From positions 1 to 64,000 of IMG/VR virus record IMGVR_UViG_3300013132_000048: DNA of 64,000 bases, one strand, 5' to 3'. How positions within the stretch are numbered: position 1 is the first letter of the stretch; the number at the start of each line of letters is the position of its first letter. A program made the position numbers and the translations under genes. The notes under the pieces were generated by a model that saw only the letters and a list, made by a program, of their open reading frames with translations, made no database searches and had not been told where the DNA came from. This stretch comes from a virus. This document shows, in pieces, positions 2,713 through 53,760 of this stretch.

Positions 2713-3183
2713 ATGGCATTGATTTCTTTCAAAGATGTTGGAATTAAAGGATTTAACAGTAACAATTTAGGTAGAACTGTTAATCAAATACCTTTTGGAA
2801 TAAAAACGCCTTTAGAAATAGACGCGGAAGGAAAAAGTCTATTTGCCATGCATTATGATCTTGGCGCTCAAATGGATGATAATTTACGAAATATCGTACA
2901 AACAAACCATGGAGAAAGACTTGGATTGTATACGTTTGGAGCAAATTTAAAACCTCTATTAACAGAATATTCAACTAAAGATGATTTTGACTCAGAGGCT
3001 ATGTTGCGAATAAATACTGCTGTTTCGATATACTTACCATTTGTTACTTTAGTTGGATTTGAGTCAAAACCAGATTTAGAAAACAATGAATTTACTGGTA
3101 AAATAAAAATTACCATTATGTATTCAGTTCCTGCTGCCAATTTAAATCAAAGAATGTGCGAAGTAGATCTATTTGTAATATAA
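2713..3183 (+). CDS. Baseplate wedge protein, gp25-like
   Basis: This 156-aa protein shows the gp25/IraD-type pattern: a central NHGERLGLYTFGANLKPLL segment, equivalent to the conserved G-E-R-x-x-x-P-x-F-G stretch of T4 gp25 and type VI secretion TssE, followed by a C-terminal beta-rich part. Proteins of this family form part of the baseplate wedge and help start sheath assembly in contractile tails. The length fits the family (T4 gp25 is 132 aa). It sits directly before the gp6-like gene, the usual order in myoviruses and contractile injection systems. Confidence 0.8.
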   Translation: MALISFKDVGIKGFNSNNLGRTVNQIPFGIKTPLEIDAEGKSLFAMHYDLGAQMDDNLRNIVQTNHGERLGLYTFGANLKPLLTEYSTKDDFDSEAMLRINTAVSIYLPFVTLVGFESKPDLENNEFTGKIKITIMYSVPAANLNQRMCEVDLFVI

Positions 3184-3187
3184 AATT

Positions 3188-5041
3188 ATGACATCTTCAA
3201 GTAAAAAAGAATTATTAAAAACAATAAAGGAAAGAAGTTATTTAAATAAGGACTTTGATTCTTTAAGAGCAGATCTTTTACAATATGCAAGAACTTATTT
3301 CCCAGATGCAATTAGAGATTTTAGCGAAGCTGGTTTAGGTGGATTATTGCTTGAAATGTGTGCTTATGTTGGTGATGTTCAAAGTTTTTATTTGGATCAT
3401 CAATTTCAAGAAAATTTCCCAGATTCTTCTATAGAAACTAATAACATACAAAGACATTTAAAAAATGCAGGAGTTCAAATTACAGGGGCTTCGCCAGCAG
3501 TGGTTTCAGTAACATTCTATATAGAAGTACCAGCCGATGCAACTTCTGCGACCGGTGGACCTCTTAGAGATGCTTTGCCAAAAATTCAAGCAGGAACGAG
3601 TTGCAAATCAAATGGCGGTACAGAATTTGAACTAACAGAAGATTTAGATTTTGGTGCTGTTGATAATGCAGGAAATTTATTAGCAACAGTCACAATCTCA
3701 AATAGAGATTCAAATAATAAACCAACCTCATATATTTTAACATTATCTGGCATAGCCCTATCCGGCGCTCGCAGAGTAGATTCTTTTCAAGTGAATGGAT
3801 TTGAAAAATTTAAAAAAATAACTCTTGCTCAGGAAAATATAACAGAAATAATTTCTGTTCGTGATTCTAAAGGTAATGAATATTACGAAGTTGAAAGCCT
3901 AACGCAAGATACTGTTTATAAAGCCACAATTAATAATTCTCCTGATACTCAATTAGTAAAAGAAAATTTAATTCCAATACCAGCTCCATATAGATTTACT
4001 AAAGAAGGTCAATTATCAACAAGATTTACTACGCTGACATTTGGCGGAGGCTCTGCTGAGTCATTAGATGATGATATGATTCCTGATCCAAGTGAATTCG
4101 CTGTGCCATTATATGGCAAAAAAGTATTTTCTAGATTTACAATAAATCCTGGTAATTTGTTACAAACATCTACTCTTGGTATATTAAGTCCTAATACAAC
4201 TTTAACAATTGAATATCGTTTTGGCGGGGGCTTATCTCATAATATTGAAGCAAATACCATTAGAAGTATTTCTAGATTAGTAATATCTTTTCCCAGAAAT
4301 CCTTCATCTGCTGTTGCACAGTTTGTTAGAAGTTCTCTTGATGTTAAGAACCTTGCCCCGGCTAGTGGAGGAGAAGATGCTCCAACTATTGATGATTTAA
4401 AAGCTAGAGTAAGTTCTTTTAGAAATTCTCAATCTAGAATTGTAACAAAAGAAGATTTATTAGCAAGAATATATACGATGCCAAGTAACTTCGGCAGAGT
4501 ATTTAGAGCATCTGTTCAGCCAAATCCTAACAATCCTTTAGCAACGCAACTTTTTATTATTTCTAGAAACATTCGCAAACAATTAGTCGTTTCTCCAGAT
4601 TCATTAAAGAAAAATTTAGCATTTTATTTGAATCAATACAGAATGATTTCTGATGCAATAGATATTTTAGATGCAAAAATTATAAATTATCAAGTAAAGT
4701 TTCAAGTAGTTATAGATCCAAATATGAATAAAAGTTTAGTAATGAAAAATATAATGTCAAAATTAACTAAATTTTTTGACATTAAAAATTATTACATTGA
4801 CCAGCCAATTATTTTAGCAGAAGTACAGAATATAATCTTTAATACTAGAGGCGTAATCTCAATTGTTTCAATTTCACTTGAAAATATATCAGGACAGGTT
4901 GGAGATTCAAATCCAAGATCATATTCGGAATTTGAATTTGATATCGCAGCTAATACACTAAATGGAATCGTGTTTCCTCCCCCTGGTGGAATTTTTGAAT
5001 TAAGATTCAAAGACTTTGATTTAATTGGAGCTGCTCTCTGA
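3188..5041 (+). CDS. Baseplate wedge protein, gp6/baseplate J-like
   Basis: This 617-aa protein starts with a region typical of gp6/J-like wedge proteins: YLNKDFDSLRADLLQYART, then GLGGLLLEMCAYVGDVQSFY, and DAPTIDDLKARVSSFRNSQ with RIVTKEDLLARI near residues 395-430. In T4 six gp6 dimers form the inner ring of the baseplate. It begins 4 bases after gp25, consistent with co-translation. T4 gp6 is 660 aa, so the length fits. No frameshift or missing segment is visible. The family call rests on the N-terminal and J-like core motifs and on gene order. Confidence 0.8.
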   Translation: MTSSSKKELLKTIKERSYLNKDFDSLRADLLQYARTYFPDAIRDFSEAGLGGLLLEMCAYVGDVQSFYLDHQFQENFPDSSIETNNIQRHLKNAGVQITGASPAVVSVTFYIEVPADATSATGGPLRDALPKIQAGTSCKSNGGTEFELTEDLDFGAVDNAGNLLATVTISNRDSNNKPTSYILTLSGIALSGARRVDSFQVNGFEKFKKITLAQENITEIISVRDSKGNEYYEVESLTQDTVYKATINNSPDTQLVKENLIPIPAPYRFTKEGQLSTRFTTLTFGGGSAESLDDDMIPDPSEFAVPLYGKKVFSRFTINPGNLLQTSTLGILSPNTTLTIEYRFGGGLSHNIEANTIRSISRLVISFPRNPSSAVAQFVRSSLDVKNLAPASGGEDAPTIDDLKARVSSFRNSQSRIVTKEDLLARIYTMPSNFGRVFRASVQPNPNNPLATQLFIISRNIRKQLVVSPDSLKKNLAFYLNQYRMISDAIDILDAKIINYQVKFQVVIDPNMNKSLVMKNIMSKLTKFFDIKNYYIDQPIILAEVQNIIFNTRGVISIVSISLENISGQVGDSNPRSYSEFEFDIAANTLNGIVFPPPGGIFELRFKDFDLIGAAL

Positions 5042-5051
5042 TAGGTAAAAA

Positions 5052-6632
5052 ATGTATAGAATATTAAGTGCCAGTAAAGACAGTTATATTACAAATAAAG
5101 TAATTGCAAACAAAAGATGTGAAACATCTAATGTTGGACAGGCAGGAACTTTAGATCTATTTCATTTATATAATGAAAGTATAATTTCTGGCTACACCGG
5201 CAGTGTCGAAGAATTATCAAGAATATTAATTGAATTTGATTATTCTCCAATAGCCGAATTAACATCTTCAATCTTGGATCTTAATGATTCATCATTCAAG
5301 GCTTATTTAAATTTAAAAAATATATATGGTGGTCAAACAGTTCCTAGTAATTTTACATTAAGAGCCATACCAGTTTCTAGAGCATGGGACGAAGGAAGAG
5401 GATTTGATGTAATTGCGTTTAGAGATTTAGATACAGTAAACTATATCAGTGCATCTAAAAGCTCTGGGACCGCTGTAAGCTGGTCTTTAGCTGGCGCGGG
5501 TGCCTCGGGGACGCTTGGAGCACTAAATATTGATATAATCGTATCTGGCAATATAGGCAATGGACTAGAAGATCTTACTGTTTCACAATTCTTTCCAAGA
5601 GGTGATGAAGATTTAATACTAGATGTAACAAAATTAGTTTCTGCAAGTATATGTGGAAATATAGAAAATAATGGTTTTAGAATTGGATTTATTGATTCCG
5701 AAGAGCTAGACCAAACAACTAGATTTGTTAAAAGATTTGCATCAAGACATACAAATGATAAAACTTTACATCCAAAAGTAATTGTTACCTATAATGATGT
5801 TCTGCAAGATGATTCTGGGCATCCTCAATTTAATGTATCTCAAAGTATCTTTGTATACAATTCCATAAATGGAAATTACGCAAATTTTATATCTGGTAGT
5901 AGTCCAATTACAGGTTTAAATTCTTTAGTTTATGAACTAATAGCAAGTAAAAGTATCTCATATTACACAAGCAGTTTTAGCATTTCTCATTCTGCTAGCA
6001 TTACACATAAAACTAGTTCCCTGTCCTATTTAACAAGATCATATTCTGGCTCTCAGTTTAATATTGGAACAATTCCACAAATAGGCATTTATTATGCAGA
6101 TTTAAATTTAAATACAGCAGAAGATGCTGGATTACAAGCCTATCTCTCAGGTGCCTCAGAACAAACATTCTTAGCCTCTTGGAAAAGTTTAGATAAAACA
6201 ATTTTATTTGCTCAACAATATGTAACTTATCAAATTCCATTTGGAACATTTAGCAATACTTTTGAAAAAAATTATACTGTTAATATTACCAATTTAAAAC
6301 AAACTTATAACAAAGATGAAATTGCTAGACTTAGAGTCTTTATTCAAAATAACAATACAGAAATGGTTGCTTACAAGTTTCCAACAGAAACAAAATCTTT
6401 GATATTAAAAGATATAAAATGGAGACTAATACAAGCGTATACTAAAAAAGAAGTAATTCCGTTTACTAGTTCTGCTACAAAATTGTCTACCGATAATTTG
6501 GGTATGTATTTTGATCTATATTTAAAAGATTTAAATGTGAATGAACTCTATGAAATAGAATTGATGATTACAGAAGCTAATAGAGATTATTATATAAAAG
6601 ACAAAGGGTTTATATTTAAAATTATAAGCTAA
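5052..6632 (+). CDS. Virion protein with DNRLRE/CBM96-like N-terminal domain
   Basis: A 526-aa protein. Residues 1-190 show the spacing of DNRLRE/CBM96-type carbohydrate-binding domains: SKDSYITNK at the start, an SRILIEFDYS strand, and SRAWDEGRGFDV late in the domain. The rest is Ser/Thr/Asn-rich and beta-like. A good ribosome site (TAGGTAAAA) precedes the ATG. Placed after gp6 and before a LamG protein, it is probably a peripheral baseplate or fibre-attachment protein that may contact host surface glycans. The domain call is by pattern only; no catalytic residues are suggested. Confidence 0.6.
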   Translation: MYRILSASKDSYITNKVIANKRCETSNVGQAGTLDLFHLYNESIISGYTGSVEELSRILIEFDYSPIAELTSSILDLNDSSFKAYLNLKNIYGGQTVPSNFTLRAIPVSRAWDEGRGFDVIAFRDLDTVNYISASKSSGTAVSWSLAGAGASGTLGALNIDIIVSGNIGNGLEDLTVSQFFPRGDEDLILDVTKLVSASICGNIENNGFRIGFIDSEELDQTTRFVKRFASRHTNDKTLHPKVIVTYNDVLQDDSGHPQFNVSQSIFVYNSINGNYANFISGSSPITGLNSLVYELIASKSISYYTSSFSISHSASITHKTSSLSYLTRSYSGSQFNIGTIPQIGIYYADLNLNTAEDAGLQAYLSGASEQTFLASWKSLDKTILFAQQYVTYQIPFGTFSNTFEKNYTVNITNLKQTYNKDEIARLRVFIQNNNTEMVAYKFPTETKSLILKDIKWRLIQAYTKKEVIPFTSSATKLSTDNLGMYFDLYLKDLNVNELYEIELMITEANRDYYIKDKGFIFKIIS

Positions 6633-42514: not shown

Positions 42515-42589
42515 TTAAGAGAAGTTTATTTTCATTTATTTTATGTGCTATTGTGTGTTTAAGATAAGGTGTCAATTTTAGAGGATTAT

Positions 42590-45500
42590 ATGAAGACATT
42601 AGAACAATTAAAAGCAGAAGGGGAAGCCCCAAGCTGGCTAACGAGCGATGCATTCCAGACTTTGAATGGCGGCTACCTTTGGAATGATGAAACTCCAAAG
42701 GCTATGTATCGCCGTGTAGCTACGAGCGTAGCCCTTTCTCTTAAGAAGCCAGAACTTGCAGATAAGTTCTTTGATATCATGTGGAAAAACTGGCTATGCC
42801 CTTCTACTCCAGTTTTATGTAACGCAGGAACAACTAGAGGATTACCTATAAGTTGCTTAACTGGAGATTCTTGGGTCAATACAAAATCCGGGGGAAAACA
42901 GATTAAAGATATCCAGATTGGAGAACTTGTTCTTACTCACAAGGGTCGTTGGCGTAGAGTTATTTCAAAAACTTCACAACAATCTAAAGATCCAATTTAT
43001 GTTCTTAAAGTTCGGACAAGAATGACTCCTATTAAAATAACAGGGAATCATTTAGTTCTAACGAATTTAGGTTGGATACGTGTCGATGAACTTAATCCAT
43101 CTAAACATTGGATTGCCGTTAATAAAGATATTGAATTTGAGGAAAAAAATCACATTATTTCATTGAAAGAATATTGTTCATATTCATATAAAGAGCACAA
43201 TGGAAAAATTTGTAAAATTCAAGAAACAAAATCAAAAAAGAAGCGAGATATCCTAAAAGAACAAATTGTATCATCTCATTCACAGCCATATGCAAATATA
43301 CCTGTTGACGAAGAAGTGGCTTGGGCTCTTGGATTATGGTTTGCAGAAGGAAGCAGATCGCAGAATCATAAAAAACTAGCGACTGGCATACGAATTACGA
43401 TAGGTTCAGATGAAGAACATTATGCAAAACGTTTTCTTGACATAATGAAAGAAAAATTTAATTTAAATGGAAATTATTATTTTTCCGAAAGACCAAACCC
43501 AAATAAACCTGGATATATGAATTCCTGGATCTCTGTAAATGTGAACGGAAGATTAATAGGAGAATTCTTTGATAAAGAATTTGGAATTGGCTGCAAGAAT
43601 AAGCAAATTCCTGAATGGATTACTGCTTTACCAAAACCAATTTTAAAATCGTTTGTTCAAGGAGTTTTAGATGGAGATGGAAGTCGTAGTGCATCTGGAA
43701 CTGATAAAATTACATTAGCAAATGGACCAATGATATTGGGACTGTATAATTCTTTATTGAAGCTTAATATTCCTTGTTCGCTACAAATGCAGACAAAAGC
43801 ATCTAAGCTTTCAAAAGATTCTTTTGTTTATACGATTGACATGTATAATGGATATGACATGTCAAAGGCAAGAAAAAGACCATCTGTAGGTATTCAATTT
43901 GAAAACAATCTTTATGCACCAATAGCAAGTTTGGTAAAAACTGATATGAAAGAAGAAGTATTTGATATTGGAGTCGAAGAAGACCATTCTTTTTCAGTGA
44001 GTGGAGTCGTTGTACACAATTGTTTTTCATCATACATGGCTGATGATACCTATGAGATCCTTGAAACCCTACAGGAAGTAGCAATGCTATCCAAGTATGG
44101 TGGTGGAACGGCTATACACGTTAATGATGTTCGTGCTAAAGGTGCTCCAATCTCTAAGGGTGGACATTCAGATGGTGTAGTTCCATTCCTTAAAATGGCA
44201 GATAGCGTTATTCTTGGCATATCTCAAGGTTCTACCCGCAGGGGGGCGTGTGCTGCATACATTGATATTGAACATGGCGATTTTGATGAGTTTTTACAAT
44301 CCCGCAGACCTACGGGAGACGTTAACAGACAATGTCTTAATCTTCATCATGGTGTATGTGTTTCTAATGCGTTTATAGACAAGGTAAAGGCTGGAGATGT
44401 AGAAGCCCGGAGACGTTGGAAAGAGCTGATTAAGAGCCGTGTAGAGACAGGAGAACCCTATGTTTTCTTTACGGACAATGCTAATGATCAAGCGCCGCCT
44501 GTATTAAAAGAAACCGGTATTAAACTTAAAGGTTCAAACCTTTGTGTAACGGGAGATCAATTAGTTGTAACTTCTAAAGGATTACGTAGTGTTCTTGATC
44601 TTGTCAATTCTGGAGAAGAATTAACTTTGTTTGATGGAACTAAGACAGTAAATGCTTCTCCCATGAAGTTAATAGAAAAAAATGTCCCTGTTTATCGTAT
44701 TACTACAAAAACTGGTCGAACACATGATGTTACGTCATATCACAAAATAAAAACAACTCGTGGAATGATTGCGTGTGAAGAACTAAAAGCTGGAGATAAA
44801 ATTTTTGTTCAACGTAAGGAAGGCTTGTTTGGAAATGCTCATAAACCAGAGTTAGCATTCTTACTAGGACTTTATCATGCAGACGGTACACAGACAGACA
44901 AATGTGTATATATTGATATCTGGGAAAATGATTTTAAGCTTCGTTCAGAGATAGAAGAAGCGGTAAAAAAAGTTTACACACAAGAGAATTGGCTTCAATA
45001 CGATGTTAAAAATCAAACCGGCAAAATTGTTGGCAAAAGGAAAGCAAAAATTCCAACTTTCATAAGGCAAAATACCGGTACGTCAAGCGTTCAAAAACTT
45101 CGTCTTGGGTCATCTAATTTAAAAAAATTTGGTTTTAAAAAAGGTGTAATACCAGACTGGATTTATCAAGGTGATAAAGAAACCATTTCTCAATATCTTA
45201 GAGGCTTATATATTGCAGATGGAACAATCAATGTTTCTAAATCGTATGGAAATCCTCTATATCTTTCATTAGTTTCAATTGATCGTGATTTTCTTGGAAA
45301 AATACAAATAATTCTTTCTAATCTTGGTATTGAATCAAAAGTATATTCATTGAGAAAAGCGGGTAAAAGTTTACTTCCTGATGGGAAGGGCGGGAACAAA
45401 TATTACGACACAAAAGAATGTTGGCGTTTAAATATTAGCAATAAAACCGATGCAATAAAGTTTGATAAGCTTACAGGATTTCTCACGTATAAAGGAAAAT

Positions 45501-46570
45501 CTATTCAAGAAAGAAAATATAGAGATAATACCCAAAAAAATGATGAAGTAATTTCAGTAACTTATTTGAATAATCAAGATGTGTATTGTACAACGGTTGA
45601 TTCAAAAGAACATGTTTGGGTTTGTAATTCTTTTATAACTTCAAATTGTTCCGAAATCTTCCTTCCAACAGACAAGGATCATACATTCGTTTGTTGCCTA
45701 TCTTCCCTTAATCTTGCAAGATGGGATGAATGGAAAGACACGGACACGGTTCAACTATCCGTATGGTTCCTTGATGGTATAATGGAAGAGTTTATCCAGA
45801 AGGCATCCGGTCTTCGTGGTTTTGAAAGAGCTTTGAGATTTGCTACAAAATCCCGTGCTCTTGGACTTGGTGTTCTCGGTCTACACTCATACTTCCAAAA
45901 GAATATGATTGCTTTTGATAGCCTACAAGCTTATCTCCAGAATAAGATTATATTCAAGAAGATTAGAGAAGAAGCTGAGTTAGCAACATCAGCCCTTGCT
46001 GCTGAATATGGTGAACCAGAGTGGTGTAAGGGTCATGGCAGAAGAAATGCTACCCTTATGGCTATAGCTCCTACTGTATCTAACTCCCTTATTGCTTCTA
46101 ACGTATCCCAAGGTATTGAGCCATGGATTGCTAATGCATTTGCCCAAAAGAGTGCAAAAGGAACATTCGTAAGAAGAAATCCAGAACTTGAGAAGCTTCT
46201 TAAGAGCATTGGACAGGATACAGACGAAGTTTGGGGTTCAATCCTAAAGAATGATGGCTCGGTTCAACAGTTAGAATGCTTAACCGCTGAACAGAAGGAA
46301 GTATTCCTTACCGCAAGAGAGTTAAATCAGTTTGCCATCGTTAAGTTGGCGGCTGAAAGACAGAAGTTTGTTGATCAAGGTCAAAGCATCAATATCTTCT
46401 TCCCAGCTAACAGCGATCCAAAGTATATCAATCAAGTTCATTTGGAAGCTGCTAATAGCGGATTAAAGAGCCTATATTATCTCCGTTCCACATCTGTTCT
46501 TAAAGCTGAACAGAACAGTAATGCGGTATATAAGAGAGAACTAACAGAATGCACTTGGTGCGAAGGATGA
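42590..46570 (+). CDS. nrdA: Ribonucleotide reductase class I, alpha subunit, with two inteins
   Basis: The precursor is 1326 aa from ATG 42590 (GAGG 5 bases upstream); an in-frame GTG at 42569 is less likely. Removing inteins at 42854-44020 and 44543-45646 gives a 569-aa enzyme in three pieces of 88, 174 and 307 aa. The extein Cys after intein 1 (CFSSYMADD) corresponds to the substrate-reducing cysteine, and the Cys after intein 2 (CSEIFLP) to the thiyl-radical cysteine with its Glu; HTFVCCLSSLNLA holds the second redox cysteine and the end CTWCEG the tail pair. Only 88 residues precede the first catalytic Cys, so the ATP-cone and part of the usual N-terminal domain are absent. Adjacent to nrdB, with which it acts. 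Confidence 0.85.
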   Translation: MKTLEQLKAEGEAPSWLTSDAFQTLNGGYLWNDETPKAMYRRVATSVALSLKKPELADKFFDIMWKNWLCPSTPVLCNAGTTRGLPISCLTGDSWVNTKSGGKQIKDIQIGELVLTHKGRWRRVISKTSQQSKDPIYVLKVRTRMTPIKITGNHLVLTNLGWIRVDELNPSKHWIAVNKDIEFEEKNHIISLKEYCSYSYKEHNGKICKIQETKSKKKRDILKEQIVSSHSQPYANIPVDEEVAWALGLWFAEGSRSQNHKKLATGIRITIGSDEEHYAKRFLDIMKEKFNLNGNYYFSERPNPNKPGYMNSWISVNVNGRLIGEFFDKEFGIGCKNKQIPEWITALPKPILKSFVQGVLDGDGSRSASGTDKITLANGPMILGLYNSLLKLNIPCSLQMQTKASKLSKDSFVYTIDMYNGYDMSKARKRPSVGIQFENNLYAPIASLVKTDMKEEVFDIGVEEDHSFSVSGVVVHNCFSSYMADDTYEILETLQEVAMLSKYGGGTAIHVNDVRAKGAPISKGGHSDGVVPFLKMADSVILGISQGSTRRGACAAYIDIEHGDFDEFLQSRRPTGDVNRQCLNLHHGVCVSNAFIDKVKAGDVEARRRWKELIKSRVETGEPYVFFTDNANDQAPPVLKETGIKLKGSNLCVTGDQLVVTSKGLRSVLDLVNSGEELTLFDGTKTVNASPMKLIEKNVPVYRITTKTGRTHDVTSYHKIKTTRGMIACEELKAGDKIFVQRKEGLFGNAHKPELAFLLGLYHADGTQTDKCVYIDIWENDFKLRSEIEEAVKKVYTQENWLQYDVKNQTGKIVGKRKAKIPTFIRQNTGTSSVQKLRLGSSNLKKFGFKKGVIPDWIYQGDKETISQYLRGLYIADGTINVSKSYGNPLYLSLVSIDRDFLGKIQIILSNLGIESKVYSLRKAGKSLLPDGKGGNKYYDTKECWRLNISNKTDAIKFDKLTGFLTYKGKSIQERKYRDNTQKNDEVISVTYLNNQDVYCTTVDSKEHVWVCNSFITSNCSEIFLPTDKDHTFVCCLSSLNLARWDEWKDTDTVQLSVWFLDGIMEEFIQKASGLRGFERALRFATKSRALGLGVLGLHSYFQKNMIAFDSLQAYLQNKIIFKKIREEAELATSALAAEYGEPEWCKGHGRRNATLMAIAPTVSNSLIASNVSQGIEPWIANAFAQKSAKGTFVRRNPELEKLLKSIGQDTDEVWGSILKNDGSVQQLECLTAEQKEVFLTARELNQFAIVKLAAERQKFVDQGQSINIFFPANSDPKYINQVHLEAANSGLKSLYYLRSTSVLKAEQNSNAVYKRELTECTWCEG
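42854..44020 (+). mobile_element. NrdA intein 1 with LAGLIDADG endonuclease
   Basis: 389 residues inserted between Ser and the first catalytic Cys of NrdA. Splicing signs are an N-terminal Cys in CLTGDSWV, a block B with ITGNHLVL, and the end VVVHN directly before Cys (His-Asn plus Cys +1). The two LAGLIDADG-type motifs are ALGLWFAEGSR (about 43326-43358) and FVQGVLDGDGS (about 43654-43686), the arrangement of a homing endonuclease. Splicing must occur to form the active site. The intein looks more AT-rich than its exteins, in line with separate origin. Confidence 0.9.
44543..45646 (+). mobile_element. NrdA intein 2 with LAGLIDADG endonuclease
   Basis: 368 residues inserted in Asn-Leu-Cys of the thiyl-radical site. 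The N-terminal Cys is in CVTGDQLVV, block B contains VTSYHKI, and the C-terminus is VCNSFITSN before Cys +1. The penultimate residue is Ser instead of the usual His, a variation known to be tolerated in some inteins. LAGLIDADG-type motifs are FLLGLYHADGT (about 44858-44890) and YLRGLYIADGT (about 45194-45226). It is a different intein from number 1 by sequence. Confidence 0.9.
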
Positions 46571-46588
46571 AAGATAATATATATTGAT

Positions 46589-47086
46589 ATGTCAGATATT
46601 ATCTTTGAAGCAAAACGTTTACAAAATTTGGCGGGTCTTTTAATTGAAGAAACTCGAAATATTTCTTATACGGCAATTGTTTTATATAAAGATTCACATC
46701 TTAAATTAATTTCTTCTCTTGAAGATTTAATTCCAAAAGATTGGAAAATTGTTGCTCATCATGTAACTATCAACATGAAATCATTTGCAGGAGATATAAA
46801 ATTGCTAAACTCCAATCACCTAGTGGAAGTTAATTCATTTGTAATAAATGATAAAGTTTGTGCATGTGGAGTTAAAATAATAACTGGCATTATAAGTGAA
46901 AATGATAATCCGCACATAACATTGGCAATTAACAAAGCTGCTGATGCAAAAGCCAAAGATTCTAACAATAAAAAACTTTGGGAAAATGCAAAAACAATAA
47001 ATTCTCTTATACTAGAAGGTAAATTAGTTGAAGTAGCTAAGGGAGAAAGTTTTTTTGCAGAAAATTATCCTACTGCTGAAACATGA
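46589..47086 (+). CDS. 2H phosphoesterase-like protein (RNA-repair type)
   Basis: A 165-aa protein with two H-x-T motifs in the expected spacing: HHVTINM (His58-Val-Thr60) and PHITLAI (His109-Ile-Thr111). Preceding it, YTAIVLYKDSHLKL fits the first strand and helix of 2H phosphoesterase domains such as those in tRNA ligases and cyclic phosphodiesterases. Likely substrates are RNA 2',3'-cyclic phosphates or small cyclic nucleotides; the sequence cannot decide. It follows nrdA by 18 bases. Together with the CCA-adding enzyme at 56983 it may serve tRNA repair (inference). Confidence 0.65.
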   Translation: MSDIIFEAKRLQNLAGLLIEETRNISYTAIVLYKDSHLKLISSLEDLIPKDWKIVAHHVTINMKSFAGDIKLLNSNHLVEVNSFVINDKVCACGVKIITGIISENDNPHITLAINKAADAKAKDSNNKKLWENAKTINSLILEGKLVEVAKGESFFAENYPTAET

Positions 47087-47095
47087 AAGGTAAAT

Positions 47096-47782
47096 ATGAC
47101 AATAAGACTAATAGACCTAAGAGCCCAACAAACAAATCCATTTCCCAGAAAAAAGAGTTCTGATGGAAAGGTAATAAACACATCCAAGGTTGTCAAAGGT
47201 AAGACTTTGGTTCGTGATCCAAAATCAATAACCGGTATTGGTATTCACCAAACAGCCTGCGTATTTGGACCATTAAATGATAGAGAAAAGGCTTATAAAC
47301 GTGCTAGCGGTATACCAGCACATGTTACAGCCTTTAGAGATGGTGTATATGTAGCTGCGGCACCATTAGATTGGTTTCTATATCATGGAAATGAGCTTAA
47401 CTCATTTAGTCTTGGATTAGAGTGCGAAGGACATTATCCAGGCTTACTAGACGACCCTAAGACGCCCATTAGAGAAGATATTAAGACAACCTGGGGCGGC
47501 ACCCCAACACCATTAGATGATAAGGCTATAGAGACGTTTAGAGCCGCCCTTAAGTGGTTGGTAGATAATGGTAGAGCCGCCGGTATGCCAATAGAATATA
47601 TCTGGGCACATAGACAATCAAATGGTCAAAAGCCTTCAGATCCTGGTATGGGTATATGGCAAAAGGTTGTATTGGAATATGGTGTTCCTGTATTGGGATT
47701 AAAGACACAACCAGAGAAGGCGTGGCGAGATGGTAAACCAATCCCAACAAATTGGGAAACTGGTGGTGTAGGCAAGTATTGA
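47096..47782 (+). CDS. N-acetylmuramoyl-L-alanine amidase, endolysin
   Basis: A 228-aa protein of the Amidase_2/PGRP type. Likely zinc ligands are His51 in GIGIHQTA, His172 in IWAHRQS and Asp182 in KPSDPG; FSLGLECEG matches the core strand. It would cut the amide bond between muramic acid and L-alanine of peptidoglycan and release progeny. No signal peptide, transmembrane segment or cell-wall-binding domain is seen, so export would need a holin. The next gene encodes a small membrane protein. AAAGGT gives a good ribosome site. Confidence 0.75.
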   Translation: MTIRLIDLRAQQTNPFPRKKSSDGKVINTSKVVKGKTLVRDPKSITGIGIHQTACVFGPLNDREKAYKRASGIPAHVTAFRDGVYVAAAPLDWFLYHGNELNSFSLGLECEGHYPGLLDDPKTPIREDIKTTWGGTPTPLDDKAIETFRAALKWLVDNGRAAGMPIEYIWAHRQSNGQKPSDPGMGIWQKVVLEYGVPVLGLKTQPEKAWRDGKPIPTNWETGGVGKY

Positions 47783-47785
47783 TTT

Positions 47786-48115
47786 ATGGATCCAATAATA
47801 TTTTTGGTTATTGCAAGTTATTTTATAGTATTTTCAATGGGCTATATGATAGCTAAATCAAATAATCAATCTGTGTTAAATTTGAACAACGTTCAACAAG
47901 ATAAACCCGTTAGCTTCTTGGCTAAAACTGTTAAAGAAGAAAAAACTGGAAATAAAAAAATAGAAATTAATGAACGGAAGTTTATAACTGAAATAAAAAC
48001 TGATACTCTAGAGAAAAAGTTTAATGAATTAGGTAAGAAAATTGTTGCACAAGATGAATCTTTAAGTGCAAATGTTTCAAAACTTGCTTCATTAAAAAAA
48101 TCTAAAGAGGGTTGA
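47786..48115 (+). CDS. Small single-pass membrane protein with helical tail
   Basis: A 109-aa protein with one N-terminal transmembrane segment (FLVIASYFIVFSMGYMIA, about residues 6-23) and a charged, helical remainder with coiled-coil character. It starts 3 bases after the endolysin stop and ends about 56 bases before the actin-like gene. Two readings are possible: a lysis accessory protein (holin or spanin-like) because of the amidase, or a membrane anchor for the actin-like filament. No lipobox or second membrane segment is seen. Confidence 0.65.
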   Translation: MDPIIFLVIASYFIVFSMGYMIAKSNNQSVLNLNNVQQDKPVSFLAKTVKEEKTGNKKIEINERKFITEIKTDTLEKKFNELGKKIVAQDESLSANVSKLASLKKSKEG

Positions 48116-48171
48116 ACGTGGGATTTAAAATACCAGAAATAGAAGAAAAGAAACAAAAGAGGAGTAAAAAA

Positions 48172-49185
48172 ATGGCTAAGTTAGGTAAAGGCTTAGATGT
48201 TGGTACATCATTCGTTGTATTAGCATCTGAACATGATAAAGGTGCAGTAGAATATAAAGATTTTCGTGATGCATTCTATGTAATCAAACCAGCAACTCCA
48301 ATCGCTGCAAAGATGATTGAAAAGGGTCTTGCTGGTAAAACATTTGTAAAAGATGCAGATGGAACCTTTGTTATTCTTGGTAAAGATGCTATTGAAAAGG
48401 CTGTAGAACGTAATGATAGCGCAAAGCGTCCTATGTTCCGTGGCGTAGTATCATCTAAAGAAAAGGATGCTCGTAGAGTCCTTTCCTATATCCTTAAGGA
48501 AGTAGCAGGCGAACCAGCAGAACAAGGCGAAAAACTTGTATTCTGTATTCCAGCCCAGCCTATCGATCAAGAAGATGAAGAGTTTGACGTTGGATATCAT
48601 GAAGACGTTGTAAAGAAAGTTCTTTCTGATCTCGGGTATGCTCCAAGAGCTATCAATGAGGCAGAAGCACTTTGTTATTCAGAGCTTGAAAAAGATGATT
48701 ATACCGGCGTTGCCTTGTCATGGGGTGCTGGTATGGTTAACGTCTGCGTAATGCTTAACGGCGAACCTGTACTAACATTCTCTACTACCAAGAGTGGTGA
48801 CTGGATTGATCGTATGGCTGCTGTTGCTACTGGACAAACAGATAGCGTAGTTCAAGCTGAGAAAGAGGGCGGCGTATTTACAATTGGAGAACCTAATGAT
48901 AATCAGGTTCTTGCTGCTGTATCTTCGTATTACGAACGTCTTATTGATTATACCACAAAGCAGTTAGCGGCAGCTCTTGCAGATCATAAGGATCTTCCAA
49001 AGTTTAAGGATCCTCTACCAGTAGTAGTAGGAGGAGGAACTACCCAGGCTAAAGGCTTTGTTCCTGTCTTTGCAAAGAAGCTAGAAGAGAATGGTTTTCC
49101 AGTTGCCGTCAAAGAAGTAAGACACGCTTCTGATCCCCTTCACGCTGTTGCTAGGGGATGCCTTATTGCTAGTCAAATACTTTGA
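48172..49185 (+). CDS. Actin/ParM-like ATPase
   Basis: A 337-aa protein starting at ATG 48172, with AGGAG about 8 bases upstream; an in-frame GTG at 48118 would add 18 residues but lacks support. Actin-superfamily nucleotide motifs appear in order: phosphate-1 GLDVGTS (7-13), phosphate-2-like LSWGAGMVNV (182-191), and adenosine motif VVVGGGTTQAKG (284-295). NEAEALCYSEL fits the connecting region. Codon use is less AT-biased than in neighbours, suggesting high expression, and a strong terminator follows. It could form filaments that position or segregate phage DNA, or act as a non-filamentous actin-fold ATPase; filament formation is not provable from sequence. Confidence 0.75.
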   Translation: MAKLGKGLDVGTSFVVLASEHDKGAVEYKDFRDAFYVIKPATPIAAKMIEKGLAGKTFVKDADGTFVILGKDAIEKAVERNDSAKRPMFRGVVSSKEKDARRVLSYILKEVAGEPAEQGEKLVFCIPAQPIDQEDEEFDVGYHEDVVKKVLSDLGYAPRAINEAEALCYSELEKDDYTGVALSWGAGMVNVCVMLNGEPVLTFSTTKSGDWIDRMAAVATGQTDSVVQAEKEGGVFTIGEPNDNQVLAAVSSYYERLIDYTTKQLAAALADHKDLPKFKDPLPVVVGGGTTQAKGFVPVFAKKLEENGFPVAVKEVRHASDPLHAVARGCLIASQIL

Positions 49186-49204
49186 CATAATCTAATGTAT
49201 GAAA

Positions 49205-49232
49205 TAAAGGACTGCGAAAGCAGTCCTTTTTC
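49205..49232 (+). terminator. Intrinsic terminator after the actin-like gene
   Basis: A hairpin with arms AAGGACTGC and GCAGTCCTT around a GAAA tetraloop is followed by T-residues, 20 bases after the actin-like gene's stop. The GNRA-type loop and perfect stem make it a strong terminator. It insulates the highly expressed-looking actin-like gene from the next gene. Confidence 0.88.
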
Positions 49233-49256
49233 ATTTGTAGAAAATATTTATTGGAC

Positions 49257-50294
49257 ATGAACAAAGATTCTTTAAAAGAAATTGTTAAAGAGATGATTGT
49301 CAAAGAGTTTATGGCAATTAGCATGGGCGGAGGAAGTTTAGTTCCTTCTGGACAAATCGCAGGAGGACCAGCTTTACCTATTGGCATGGGAGTTACAATT
49401 CCAAAAGATATTACACCTCCTGCTGGTAGAAGAAAGAAAAGAAGAAAGAAAAGAAAACTTAATGAAGCTAATTCTGTTATTGGAATGAATTTGGCAGCAT
49501 GGGGAGTGGACACTCCTGAACAATTGTTTGGAAGTAATTTTTATACGGATCCAGATACAGAAATGTATTCAGATAATGATGAGACTAATATTCCAAATAA
49601 TAAACCTGCAAAAAAAAGCAATGCACATAAACTAAATCCAAATAAAGATAGATTATCTTCCAAAAAGAATAGTATAAATTCAGACAAAGAAAGTAAAATA
49701 CTAAAAACAAGTTCTGAAAAACCTTTAAAATTAAAAAGCAATAATCCATTTCATAAATTAATGTGGGCTGGCGATGCACCTATCCCAAATATTTTAAAAG
49801 TAAAATATGTTATATTAGAGAATACTATAAAAGAAAATGAACAATATTTTGGTACTTCTGGCAATAATCAAGCTATATGTCATCTAGACAAAAATATTTC
49901 CGAGCAAGTAAAAGATGCATTGACTAATTTCCTGCAATTCTGTCAAGCAATGTTAGGCATCAAGATATTCCCAGAAATCTATATTCTATCTGAAAGAATG
50001 CCTGGAATGACAACAGGTGCATATCTTCCAAGTAAAAGAATAGTTTTGGCTCTAGCTGAAAATAGATTGATGATTGATGTATTTAGAACAATTGCTCATG
50101 AATTAACTCATTGTAAGCAGCATGAACGTGGAGAATTAGATAATTTACCTGAACGTAAAGGTGAAGATGACATGAGTGATGTTAATACGCCATATGAAAA
50201 TGAAGCTTATATGAATTCAGGAAATTTCTCAAAAGCTTGGGCAAGACTTTATAAAAACATGACAAGAGATGAAATATTTTCCGCCACAATGTGA
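49257..50294 (+). CDS. HExxH zinc metallopeptidase-like protein
   Basis: A 345-aa protein from ATG 49257 (a TTG at 49251 is possible). It begins with an amphipathic helix (NKDSLKEIVKEMIVKEF), has a basic stretch (AGRRKKRRKKRK) and a Lys/Ser/Asn-rich linker (about 110-165), and ends in a domain with AHELTHCKQHE, where His281, Glu282 and His285 form HExxH. A zinc protease or a structural zincin fold is likely. Similar short N-terminal helices occur at 51115. Substrate unknown; prohead or host protein processing are only guesses. Confidence 0.6.
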   Translation: MNKDSLKEIVKEMIVKEFMAISMGGGSLVPSGQIAGGPALPIGMGVTIPKDITPPAGRRKKRRKKRKLNEANSVIGMNLAAWGVDTPEQLFGSNFYTDPDTEMYSDNDETNIPNNKPAKKSNAHKLNPNKDRLSSKKNSINSDKESKILKTSSEKPLKLKSNNPFHKLMWAGDAPIPNILKVKYVILENTIKENEQYFGTSGNNQAICHLDKNISEQVKDALTNFLQFCQAMLGIKIFPEIYILSERMPGMTTGAYLPSKRIVLALAENRLMIDVFRTIAHELTHCKQHERGELDNLPERKGEDDMSDVNTPYENEAYMNSGNFSKAWARLYKNMTRDEIFSATM

Positions 50295-51742: not shown

Positions 51743-52000
51743 ATGAAGACATTACACATTCACGCTCAATATGATCAGCACCTTGAAGCACGCATCTCTG
51801 GAACTAGAGAAGCCTTAGAGGCACTCCAGAAAGCCATTAATCAACTTATATCTTCTGACAAATCAGAGAAAGAAGTTATTATTGAAATGGAATGTCGTGA
51901 TGGCGAATCATATGAACTTACGTTGCAAATGAAATCAGATTTAGAAAGTGATAATCTCCCTTATATTTCATGGGGGAAATGGGATGGAGAAAGCGTATGA
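51743..52000 (+). CDS. Small hypothetical protein coupled to thyX
   Basis: An 85-aa protein with an alpha/beta pattern (HIHAQYDQHLEARISGTREA, then EVIIEMECRDGESYELTL). A good ribosome site (AAGGATATAAT) precedes the ATG. Its TGA overlaps the thyX start (ATGA), so the two are likely co-translated. The family is not recognised; a role with nucleotide synthesis is possible only by context. Confidence 0.6.
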   Translation: MKTLHIHAQYDQHLEARISGTREALEALQKAINQLISSDKSEKEVIIEMECRDGESYELTLQMKSDLESDNLPYISWGKWDGESV

Positions 52001-53760
52001 AAGAAAAACATCAAAACAAAGTAGAACTCCTAGGACATTATGGAGGGGATTTAAGTCATGCTCAATCAGCTTGGACAAGCACCGTTAGAAATATTGATGA
52101 AGCCAAGATGAATAGAATGCCGGCTCTATTAAAAATGCTTGCAGAAAATCATCACGAAACTCCATTTGAGAAATCCAGCCTTCATTTCCTCGTAACAACC
52201 GAGGTTGCATCGCATGTGCAAATTCTAAAACATAGAATTGGCGTATCTTGTCTTGCCGGGGATACTAAGATTTATATTCCCGTTCCTGGTGGTGGAGTAA
52301 AGAAAATAACATTGGAAGAACTTTATGAGCGTCAAGAAGGCGGTATCTTGTCTAAAAGCAAGAACCAAAAGTCGTACAAAAGGCATGACCCAAGAAAACT
52401 TTCCGTTCGCACAAGAGAAGACGGATCATCCTTGGTTACTAAATCAAAAATAAATAAAGTCTTTTATAATGGAATGCGAGACGTATTCGAATTTACTACC
52501 TCAAGCGGAAAGTCAATAAGAGCCACATTCGATCATAAATTTGCCACTCCTGATGGGTGGCAAGAGATTGGTAAATATCTAGGCGTTGAACTAACGGGAA
52601 GTTTGGCTACGATGAAGCATCCCGGACCAGTAGCTACTAATGGAGTTAGAATAGAAGTTCCGGAGTATCCTTATACGTTCAGAAGCTGGTGGGAACAGTA
52701 TGAAAACAAATATACTAGAATGGAAGTTGCATCATTAACTGGTATGTCATATCCTAATGTTAAAAAGTGGGGTTATATCTTTAACATTACATTCAAACTC
52801 GACAACAATAAGGATTTCAAGAAAGACATGATTCCTTGGAACTATAAAAAAACTGGCTATACAGTTAACAGGAAAAAGCATGGTTTGAGTTCAAATATCA
52901 ACAAAAACCTTTCATATAAGTCTTGGCGTGCTAGTGTAGGAAATTGGACACGCCAGCAACTTCCTACTCTGTTAGAGAAATTTCATCATACATGTCAAGC
53001 ACAGCTAGGAGAATGTTCAAGAGACTTTGTGTGTCATCACGTAGTTCCGGTTTCGGTTGATCCATCAATAGCAACAAACATAGAAAATCTAGCTTTGGTA
53101 TGCTCTTCTTGTCATAAATTTATTCATAAAACAACAGCCAACGAAATATCATATGCCGAATCTTTCCGGAAACAGGATATGAAAACAGTATTTTCTAATC
53201 GAAAGCCTAAGACCGGTCGAAAGCTAGCTTTCGACTATGAAGATATTATCAAAGTTAAATACTGCGGTTTACAGAAAGTATATGACTTGGAAGTTGATAA
53301 AACCCATTGTTACGTTGCCAATGGTTTTCTTGTACATAACTGTAATGGCGAAAGCGCACGCTATAAGGAGCTTAAAGACGACAAATACTACGTCCCCCAG
53401 GATTGGGACGACCAGGAAGTAAACCTTTATATAGAGCATATGGAGGGCAGTCTTAAGAGCTACCATGAGTGTCTAAATCGTCTTGTAGCCAAGGGTGTCT
53501 CTCGCAAGAGAGCCAAAGAGAGTGCAAGACTATATTTGCCATATGGTAATCAATTAACGGCTGATGTTATGTTTAACTTCCGTTCATTTGCTCATTTCCT
53601 TGGGTTAAGATATTCTACTCATGCTCAAGTTGAGATTAGGGAGATCGCCAGACAGATGCTTGAACAGGTGGTTAATATAGAAGGGGATCCTTTCCATCAT
53701 ACGCTACGTGCATTTAAGTTAGTAGATGAAAATGGTAAGATAAGAGAACCTTTTGAATGA
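51997..53760 (+). CDS. thyX: Flavin-dependent thymidylate synthase with an HNH intein
   Basis: The precursor is 587 aa from ATG 51997 (GGAG upstream, ATGA overlap with the previous gene). Removing the intein at 52249-53340 leaves a 223-aa ThyX, a normal length. Joined exteins restore the ThyX signature as KHRIGVS plus CNGESARY, followed by KELKDDKYYVPQDW; the C-terminal part includes FNFRSFAHFLGLRYSTHAQVEIR. The first residue of the motif is Lys rather than Arg, a form I associate with phage ThyX. The enzyme makes dTMP from dUMP with FAD and methylene-tetrahydrofolate, complementing the reductase genes. Confidence 0.88.
   Translation: MKEKHQNKVELLGHYGGDLSHAQSAWTSTVRNIDEAKMNRMPALLKMLAENHHETPFEKSSLHFLVTTEVASHVQILKHRIGVSCLAGDTKIYIPVPGGGVKKITLEELYERQEGGILSKSKNQKSYKRHDPRKLSVRTREDGSSLVTKSKINKVFYNGMRDVFEFTTSSGKSIRATFDHKFATPDGWQEIGKYLGVELTGSLATMKHPGPVATNGVRIEVPEYPYTFRSWWEQYENKYTRMEVASLTGMSYPNVKKWGYIFNITFKLDNNKDFKKDMIPWNYKKTGYTVNRKKHGLSSNINKNLSYKSWRASVGNWTRQQLPTLLEKFHHTCQAQLGECSRDFVCHHVVPVSVDPSIATNIENLALVCSSCHKFIHKTTANEISYAESFRKQDMKTVFSNRKPKTGRKLAFDYEDIIKVKYCGLQKVYDLEVDKTHCYVANGFLVHNCNGESARYKELKDDKYYVPQDWDDQEVNLYIEHMEGSLKSYHECLNRLVAKGVSRKRAKESARLYLPYGNQLTADVMFNFRSFAHFLGLRYSTHAQVEIREIARQMLEQVVNIEGDPFHHTLRAFKLVDENGKIREPFE
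52249..53340 (+). mobile_element. ThyX intein with HNH endonuclease
   Basis: 364 residues inserted between Ser and Cys inside the ThyX signature. Splicing motifs are the N-terminal Cys in CLAGDTKIY, block B with ATFDHKFATPDGW, and the C-terminal FLVHN before Cys +1 (His-Asn). The endonuclease part is HNH instead of LAGLIDADG: FVCHHVVPVSVD, then ENLALVCSSCHKFIHK, with an upstream CQAQLGEC pair that may bind zinc. A segment MEVASLTGMSYPNVKKWG looks like a helix-turn-helix. HNH inteins are much rarer than LAGLIDADG ones. Confidence 0.9.

Follow-up and report, generated by a model that had tools for sequence, protein, structure and literature searches.

Which kind of actin does this virus encode, what is it made with, and what could its filaments do in an infected cell? 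These questions are raised by a 337-residue open reading frame at positions 48172 to 49185 (plus strand) of IMG/VR virus record IMGVR_UViG_3300013132_000048. The source record is a fragment of about 67.7 kb (67,725 bases), and its first 64,000 nucleotides form the window analysed here. A preliminary description of this DNA had proposed a phage-encoded, ParM-like ATPase with signs of strong expression from its own unit. The following features of the gene are needed first:

48172 to 49185, plus strand: volactin-family actin gene.
48190 to 48207, plus strand: phosphate-1 motif GLDVGT, with D9, G11 and T12 invariant in 75 sequences.
48658 to 48660, plus strand: connect-1 Glu163, invariant in 75 sequences and aligned with the connect-1 Glu of MamK and MreB.
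48715 to 48735, plus strand: phosphate-2 loop LSWGAGM, in which Ser183 replaces Asp; S183, G185, G187 and M188 do not vary among the phage, bacterial and haloarchaeal members.

Family membership follows from profile searches. The protein matches the Pfam family Volactin (PF25216) at 6e-63, scoring 213.6 bits against a curated cut-off of 35, and the alignment covers residues 6-333 and profile positions 3-320 of 321, that is, the full length. Salactin and MreB were distant runners-up in Pfam, where MreB_Mbl reached 16 bits on the window protein, below its cut-off of 27. The NCBIfam MamK and MreB models gave weak matches, and these only to other members of our alignment. PHROGs had no family that covers the window protein; among 57 relatives it returned only weak, scattered matches. 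ParM was absent from the Pfam and NCBIfam results and from the top 50 PDB structure matches. Thus, the window gene encodes a Volactin-family actin that is not ParM-like, and an AlfA-like reading finds no support either. The Volactin family was known until now from haloarchaea.

The reading frame is open at the coordinates given and is a real gene. The actin motifs recognized earlier are all present and in the expected order: phosphate-1 (GLDVGT), connect-1 (NEAEA), phosphate-2 (LSWGAGM), connect-2 (GDWID) and adenosine (VVGGGTTQAKG). With a Volactin match of this strength, that order is therefore not due to chance. The alignment of 75 sequences spans phages, bacteria and haloarchaea, including four Halobacteria, and its phosphate-2 residues S183, G185, G187, M188 and N190 are invariant. 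The pattern S-x-G-x-G-M-x-N is common to the window protein and the haloarchaeal members. Profile alignment to MamK places Ser183 at the Asp of the MamK motif DIGAG and Glu163 at the MamK connect-1 Glu. The phosphate-2 loop is thus as unusual as had been suggested, but because its serine is invariant in phage and cellular members alike, it is a mark of the whole family and not of phages. Replacement of Asp by Ser could lower hydrolysis. It does not exclude polymerisation, because VolA, the namesake of the family, polymerises and the sampled haloarchaeal members carry the same serine.

Inteins occur in this loop in one relative and in two other genes of the window. At one locus of the 485-kb-phage clade (L171, positions 2977-5181), a phage volactin is split by an intein (Pfam Intein_splicing, 3e-15) that contains an HNH motif and lies exactly in the phosphate-2 loop (SFGSGMTN/C). 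Inteins favour the active sites of important proteins. In the window, the large subunit of ribonucleotide reductase (42569-46570) carries two intein-like insertions (Intein_splicing, LAGLIDADG), and a ThyX-type thymidylate synthase (51970-53760) carries an HNH intein.

Structure prediction agrees with the family assignment. An AlphaFold2 model of the phage volactin, with the 75-row alignment as input, reached a pLDDT of 94.4 and a pTM of 0.91. Its best PDB matches by Foldseek were the filaments of MamK (5ljv, TM 0.74) and BeeR (8r2n, TM 0.72), followed by MreB. PilM (TM 0.47-0.53) and FtsA (0.49-0.60) both ranked under these three, and EutJ was also among the lower-ranked matches. The predicted viral proteins of BFVD included no close relative (TM at most 0.62). 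Sequence and a confident model therefore agree with the earlier reading of a phage actin-superfamily ATPase, one whose closest structural matches are filament-forming actins. The preliminary description had named a match to a non-polymerising PilM or kinase type as the contrary outcome, and no such match came out on top.

With what is this actin made? The answer lies directly upstream, where the following features are found along with the signals that flank the gene:

47786 to 48115, plus strand: partner (adaptor) gene, whose product of 109 amino acids begins with a membrane helix and ends in a tail; all 81 clade-A loci examined carry it ahead of volactin.
47795 to 47851, plus strand: partner residues 4-22, predicted from hydropathy to form a membrane helix.
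47933 to 48109, plus strand: conserved C-terminal tail of the partner, matched by profile A4 at 2.5e-19, the sole match in the record; proposed volactin binder.
48118 to 48120, plus strand: alternative GTG start of volactin, 2 nt past the partner stop, opening a possible longer form of 355 rather than 337 amino acids.
48160 to 48164, plus strand: ribosome site AGGAG, 7 nt ahead of the ATG at 48172 and conserved in close relatives.
49206 to 49229, plus strand: terminator hairpin with a GAAA loop (z = -4.1).

In clade A, volactin and the upstream partner form a two-gene cassette. The partner is about 110 residues long across the clade and directly precedes volactin. It lies within 91 nt of the actin in 79 of 81 loci, with a median gap of 4 nt; at the other two (L043 and L045) an inserted DNA methyltransferase-like gene brings the distance to 836 nt. 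Other flanking genes vary among close relatives, and the partner gene is kept. A hydrophobic N-terminal helix was found in 74 of the 77 readable clade-A partners (the window partner has an N-terminal hydropathy of 2.32), and the tail is the charged C-terminal part. In the window, the partner is separated from the ATG at 48172 by 56 nt. The short spacing that goes with the GTG at 48118 is the usual one across clade A, and the MGFK- start that it opens is kept in four close relatives, as ATG in three (L002, L003 and L004) and as GTG in the fourth (L005). Translation of volactin may therefore begin at this GTG, as judged from the conserved MGFK- start.

This arrangement bears on the expression attributed to the gene. 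The ribosome site and the terminator with its GNRA-type loop were both correctly recognized. A transcription unit of volactin's own finds no support, because no terminator lies between the partner gene and volactin and because the partner is a constant neighbour; volactin is the second gene of two. Its codons do depart from the AT bias in the direction described (GC3 0.249), but the effect is weak, ranking 8th among 46 ORFs, and the ENC of 43.3 is not low. With codon bias so unremarkable, the idea of high expression appears weak or wrong.

The tail adaptor is not universal among phages, because clade-C phages (L083-L163) have a different conserved small protein in this place. It measures about 75-87 residues and ends in WAIPDF...KIKFGK, and a simple test placed it upstream of volactin at 61 of the 80 loci. 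It is without the shared tail: neither profile comparison nor direct search found the tail in clade C. In clade B the tail is marginal (hhalign P 0.0015; one match at E 0.006).

Outside phages, the tail follows volactin into bacteria and archaea. A profile made from clade-A phage tails only, when searched through the 14,536 ORFs of the other loci, matched three phage-like contigs and, in assemblies of Desulfobacterales (9e-5), Clostridia (1.3e-3) and Anaerolineae (0.055), the gene adjoining volactin. An iterated profile, applied without positional restriction, gave 39 matches in cellular-assembly loci, and all 39 adjoin volactin (background: 4.2% of ORFs); nearly all of its matches lie at the extreme C-terminus of the protein. 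When planctomycete and haloarchaeal members were withheld from the profile, its top 14 matches among 2,021 planctomycete ORFs and its top 6 among 2,090 haloarchaeal ORFs all fell on the immediate upstream neighbour of volactin. In a test of uniqueness on 15 whole genomes or records, most of which had supplied sequences for the profile, the tail turned up a single time in each, next to the only volactin. Among 145 genomes of one phylum there was a single volactin and a single tail, both in the same genome.

The haloarchaea give the same picture. Of 15 tail matches across 59 Halobacteria genomes, 14 fell in a DUF7139 gene that precedes volactin, and DUF7139 stands upstream of 30 of 39 volactins; these counts were made by hand from coordinates, with one haloarchaeal row in the profile, and the haloarchaeal match is short and weak for single sequences.

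Several cellular loci depart from the simple pair. Some planctomycete volactin ORFs (L191, L193, L209 and L210) are extended at the N-terminus by a long charged stretch, and the search detected no tail gene alongside them. Six Omnitrophota loci (L205, L206, L214, L217, L221 and L224) have tandem volactins, with the tail gene adjoining the second. In Halobacteria such as G031, G034 and G052, the open frames with second volactin matches run to about 1,200 codons and may be fusions.

Although the tail is common, what precedes it is not. Clade-A phage partners have one membrane helix as their head, and haloarchaeal partners have the DUF7139 membrane domain. The head of several bacterial partners is a predicted winged helix (pLDDT 81-90), with three helices and a wing of two strands, that resembles MecI, MarR-type regulators and the centromere-binding protein AspA; the rest of this partner model is poor (mean 65.5). 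A common tail with varying heads looks like an adaptor, in which the tail would serve volactin and the head the object to be held. The association of the two suggests that the tail binds volactin. In haloarchaea, the DUF7139 tail proteins are candidate partners of VolA at the filament tips that touch the membrane. In a wider reading, the volactins of viruses, bacteria and archaea would be one modular cytoskeleton composed of (i) the actin; (ii) a volactin-binding tail; and (iii) a head that sets the cargo, be it a membrane helix in phages, DUF7139 in haloarchaea, or a winged helix or other domain in bacteria. Phages would have taken this system over as a membrane-tethered infection filament. 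We regard this wider reading as finely balanced. A bacterial volactin and its tail partner were also seen inside apparent gas vesicle gene clusters (L186, L229, L183, L215 and L182), and at L186 and L229 the genes beside volactin are GvpL/GvpF by Pfam. A role of volactin in placing gas vesicles is possible.

What, then, could the cassette do during infection? The best explanation of the whole, to which we give a probability of roughly two in three, is a membrane-tethered volactin filament that is held by the partner tail and organises infection. Volactin and the small product of the preceding gene would be made jointly, and volactin would most likely assemble into ATP-driven filaments in the infected cell. 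By the positive-inside rule, the partner would insert in the inner membrane through its one N-terminal helix, N-out and C-in. This orientation would expose the conserved tail to the cytoplasm, where it would bind volactin and thereby tie the ends or sides of the filament to the membrane. By analogy with PhuZ and AlpC, the filament might then place or move a phage component, such as the replication site, capsids or the genome, relative to the membrane. This role in infection is the least certain step and is offered tentatively.

Three other explanations were weighed against the tethered filament. The membrane anchor of the partner would also suit a device directed at the host, in which a membrane-anchored actin disturbs or replaces MreB or FtsA and so changes cell shape or blocks division. 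The fold is close to that of MreB, and VolA affects cell shape in Haloferax (PMC10869688). However, the tail is a volactin-specific module common to cellular volactins, which points to a filament system of its own, and we consider a host-directed device unlikely.

DNA segregation of the ParMRC or AlpAC type, in which a DNA-binding adaptor would couple phage DNA to a pushing filament, draws on the winged-helix heads of bacterial volactin partners, with their likeness to MecI/MarR and AspA. It has a phage precedent in AlpA-AlpC, whose adaptor gene is also upstream (PMC4446434). Yet the clade-A head is a membrane helix and not a DNA-binding domain, no repeat or iteron array was found in positions 46500-49700 around the volactin gene, and the family is not that of ParM; segregation thus appears quite improbable. 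A ParM-type locus as such was rejected on the absent repeats, the membrane partner and the different family.

A non-polymerising actin-fold ATPase or switch of the PilM, FtsA or kinase-like type, which would suit the Asp-to-Ser change and the lower-ranked matches to PilM and EutJ, is very improbable given that the best structural matches form filaments and that VolA polymerises in vivo, with the same serine in the sampled haloarchaeal members.

The tethered filament would not be confined to one virus. Volactin relatives in viral contigs number 331 loci for clade A and 108 for a second clade, and a third clade is small. A phage collection yielded two volactins, in genomes of 485 kb and 595 kb, with 38% and 33% identity, and related clades occur on contigs of up to 533 kb, in addition to the 595-kb record. 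In cellular assemblies, volactin was found in Planctomycetota, Omnitrophota, Nitrospirota, Patescibacteria, Halobacteria and others. The volactin tree places three phage clades, each with 100% SH-aLRT support, among the cellular volactins. A single clade of all phage volactins was not rejected (AU p 0.47), so that the transfers to phages may have been several or one.

To our knowledge, the phage cytoskeletons described so far comprise PhuZ tubulins and a small number of ParM-like actins. Neither a phage volactin nor the common partner tail was found in the literature searched, which included no bioRxiv and few subscription journals. Actin is not mentioned in a 2020 paper on huge phages or in a 2026 review of jumbo phages, nor are phages mentioned in the volactin (PMC10869688) and salactin papers. 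A membrane-tethered viral volactin filament thus appears not to have been described before and, if true, would constitute a separate, widespread actin system of large uncultured phages.

The proposed system shares features with several known ones. The PhuZ spindle of nucleus-forming jumbo phages is likewise a phage-encoded cytoskeleton in large phages, and the likeness in function is drawn by analogy; PhuZ is a tubulin, whereas the phage volactin is an actin. Tubulin (PF00091) was found in 0 of 12 clade-A contigs, which may be incomplete.

MamK of magnetotactic bacteria offers the closest solved filament fold, and its catalytic Glu position is kept in the phage volactin. However, the two proteins are about 18% identical, MamK has Asp in its phosphate-2 motif, and their partners differ.

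ParM-ParR-parC follows a similar logic of actin plus adaptor, and in the ParM system the C-terminal tail of the adaptor contacts the filament. It differs in its actin family, in its centromere repeats, and in an adaptor gene that lies downstream rather than upstream; the phage volactin adaptor, by comparison, has a membrane head. AlpA-AlpC of prophage CGP3 in Corynebacterium glutamicum likewise pairs a phage actin with an adaptor whose gene precedes it in a shared operon, but AlpA binds DNA repeats (PMC4446434), whereas the volactin adaptor is a membrane protein and such repeats are absent.

By family, the closest is volactin itself (VolA, HVO_2015; PF25216) of Haloferax volcanii and other Halobacteria. 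It has the same family, length, motifs and serine phosphate-2 loop, and in 30 of 39 sampled genomes the gene upstream encodes a membrane protein whose tail is of this kind. The phage protein differs in being phage-encoded and about 36% identical, and its partner has one membrane helix where the haloarchaeal partner has the DUF7139 domain. In Haloferax volcanii, VolA forms dynamic filaments that span the cytoplasm, with tips that touch the membrane (PMC10869688).
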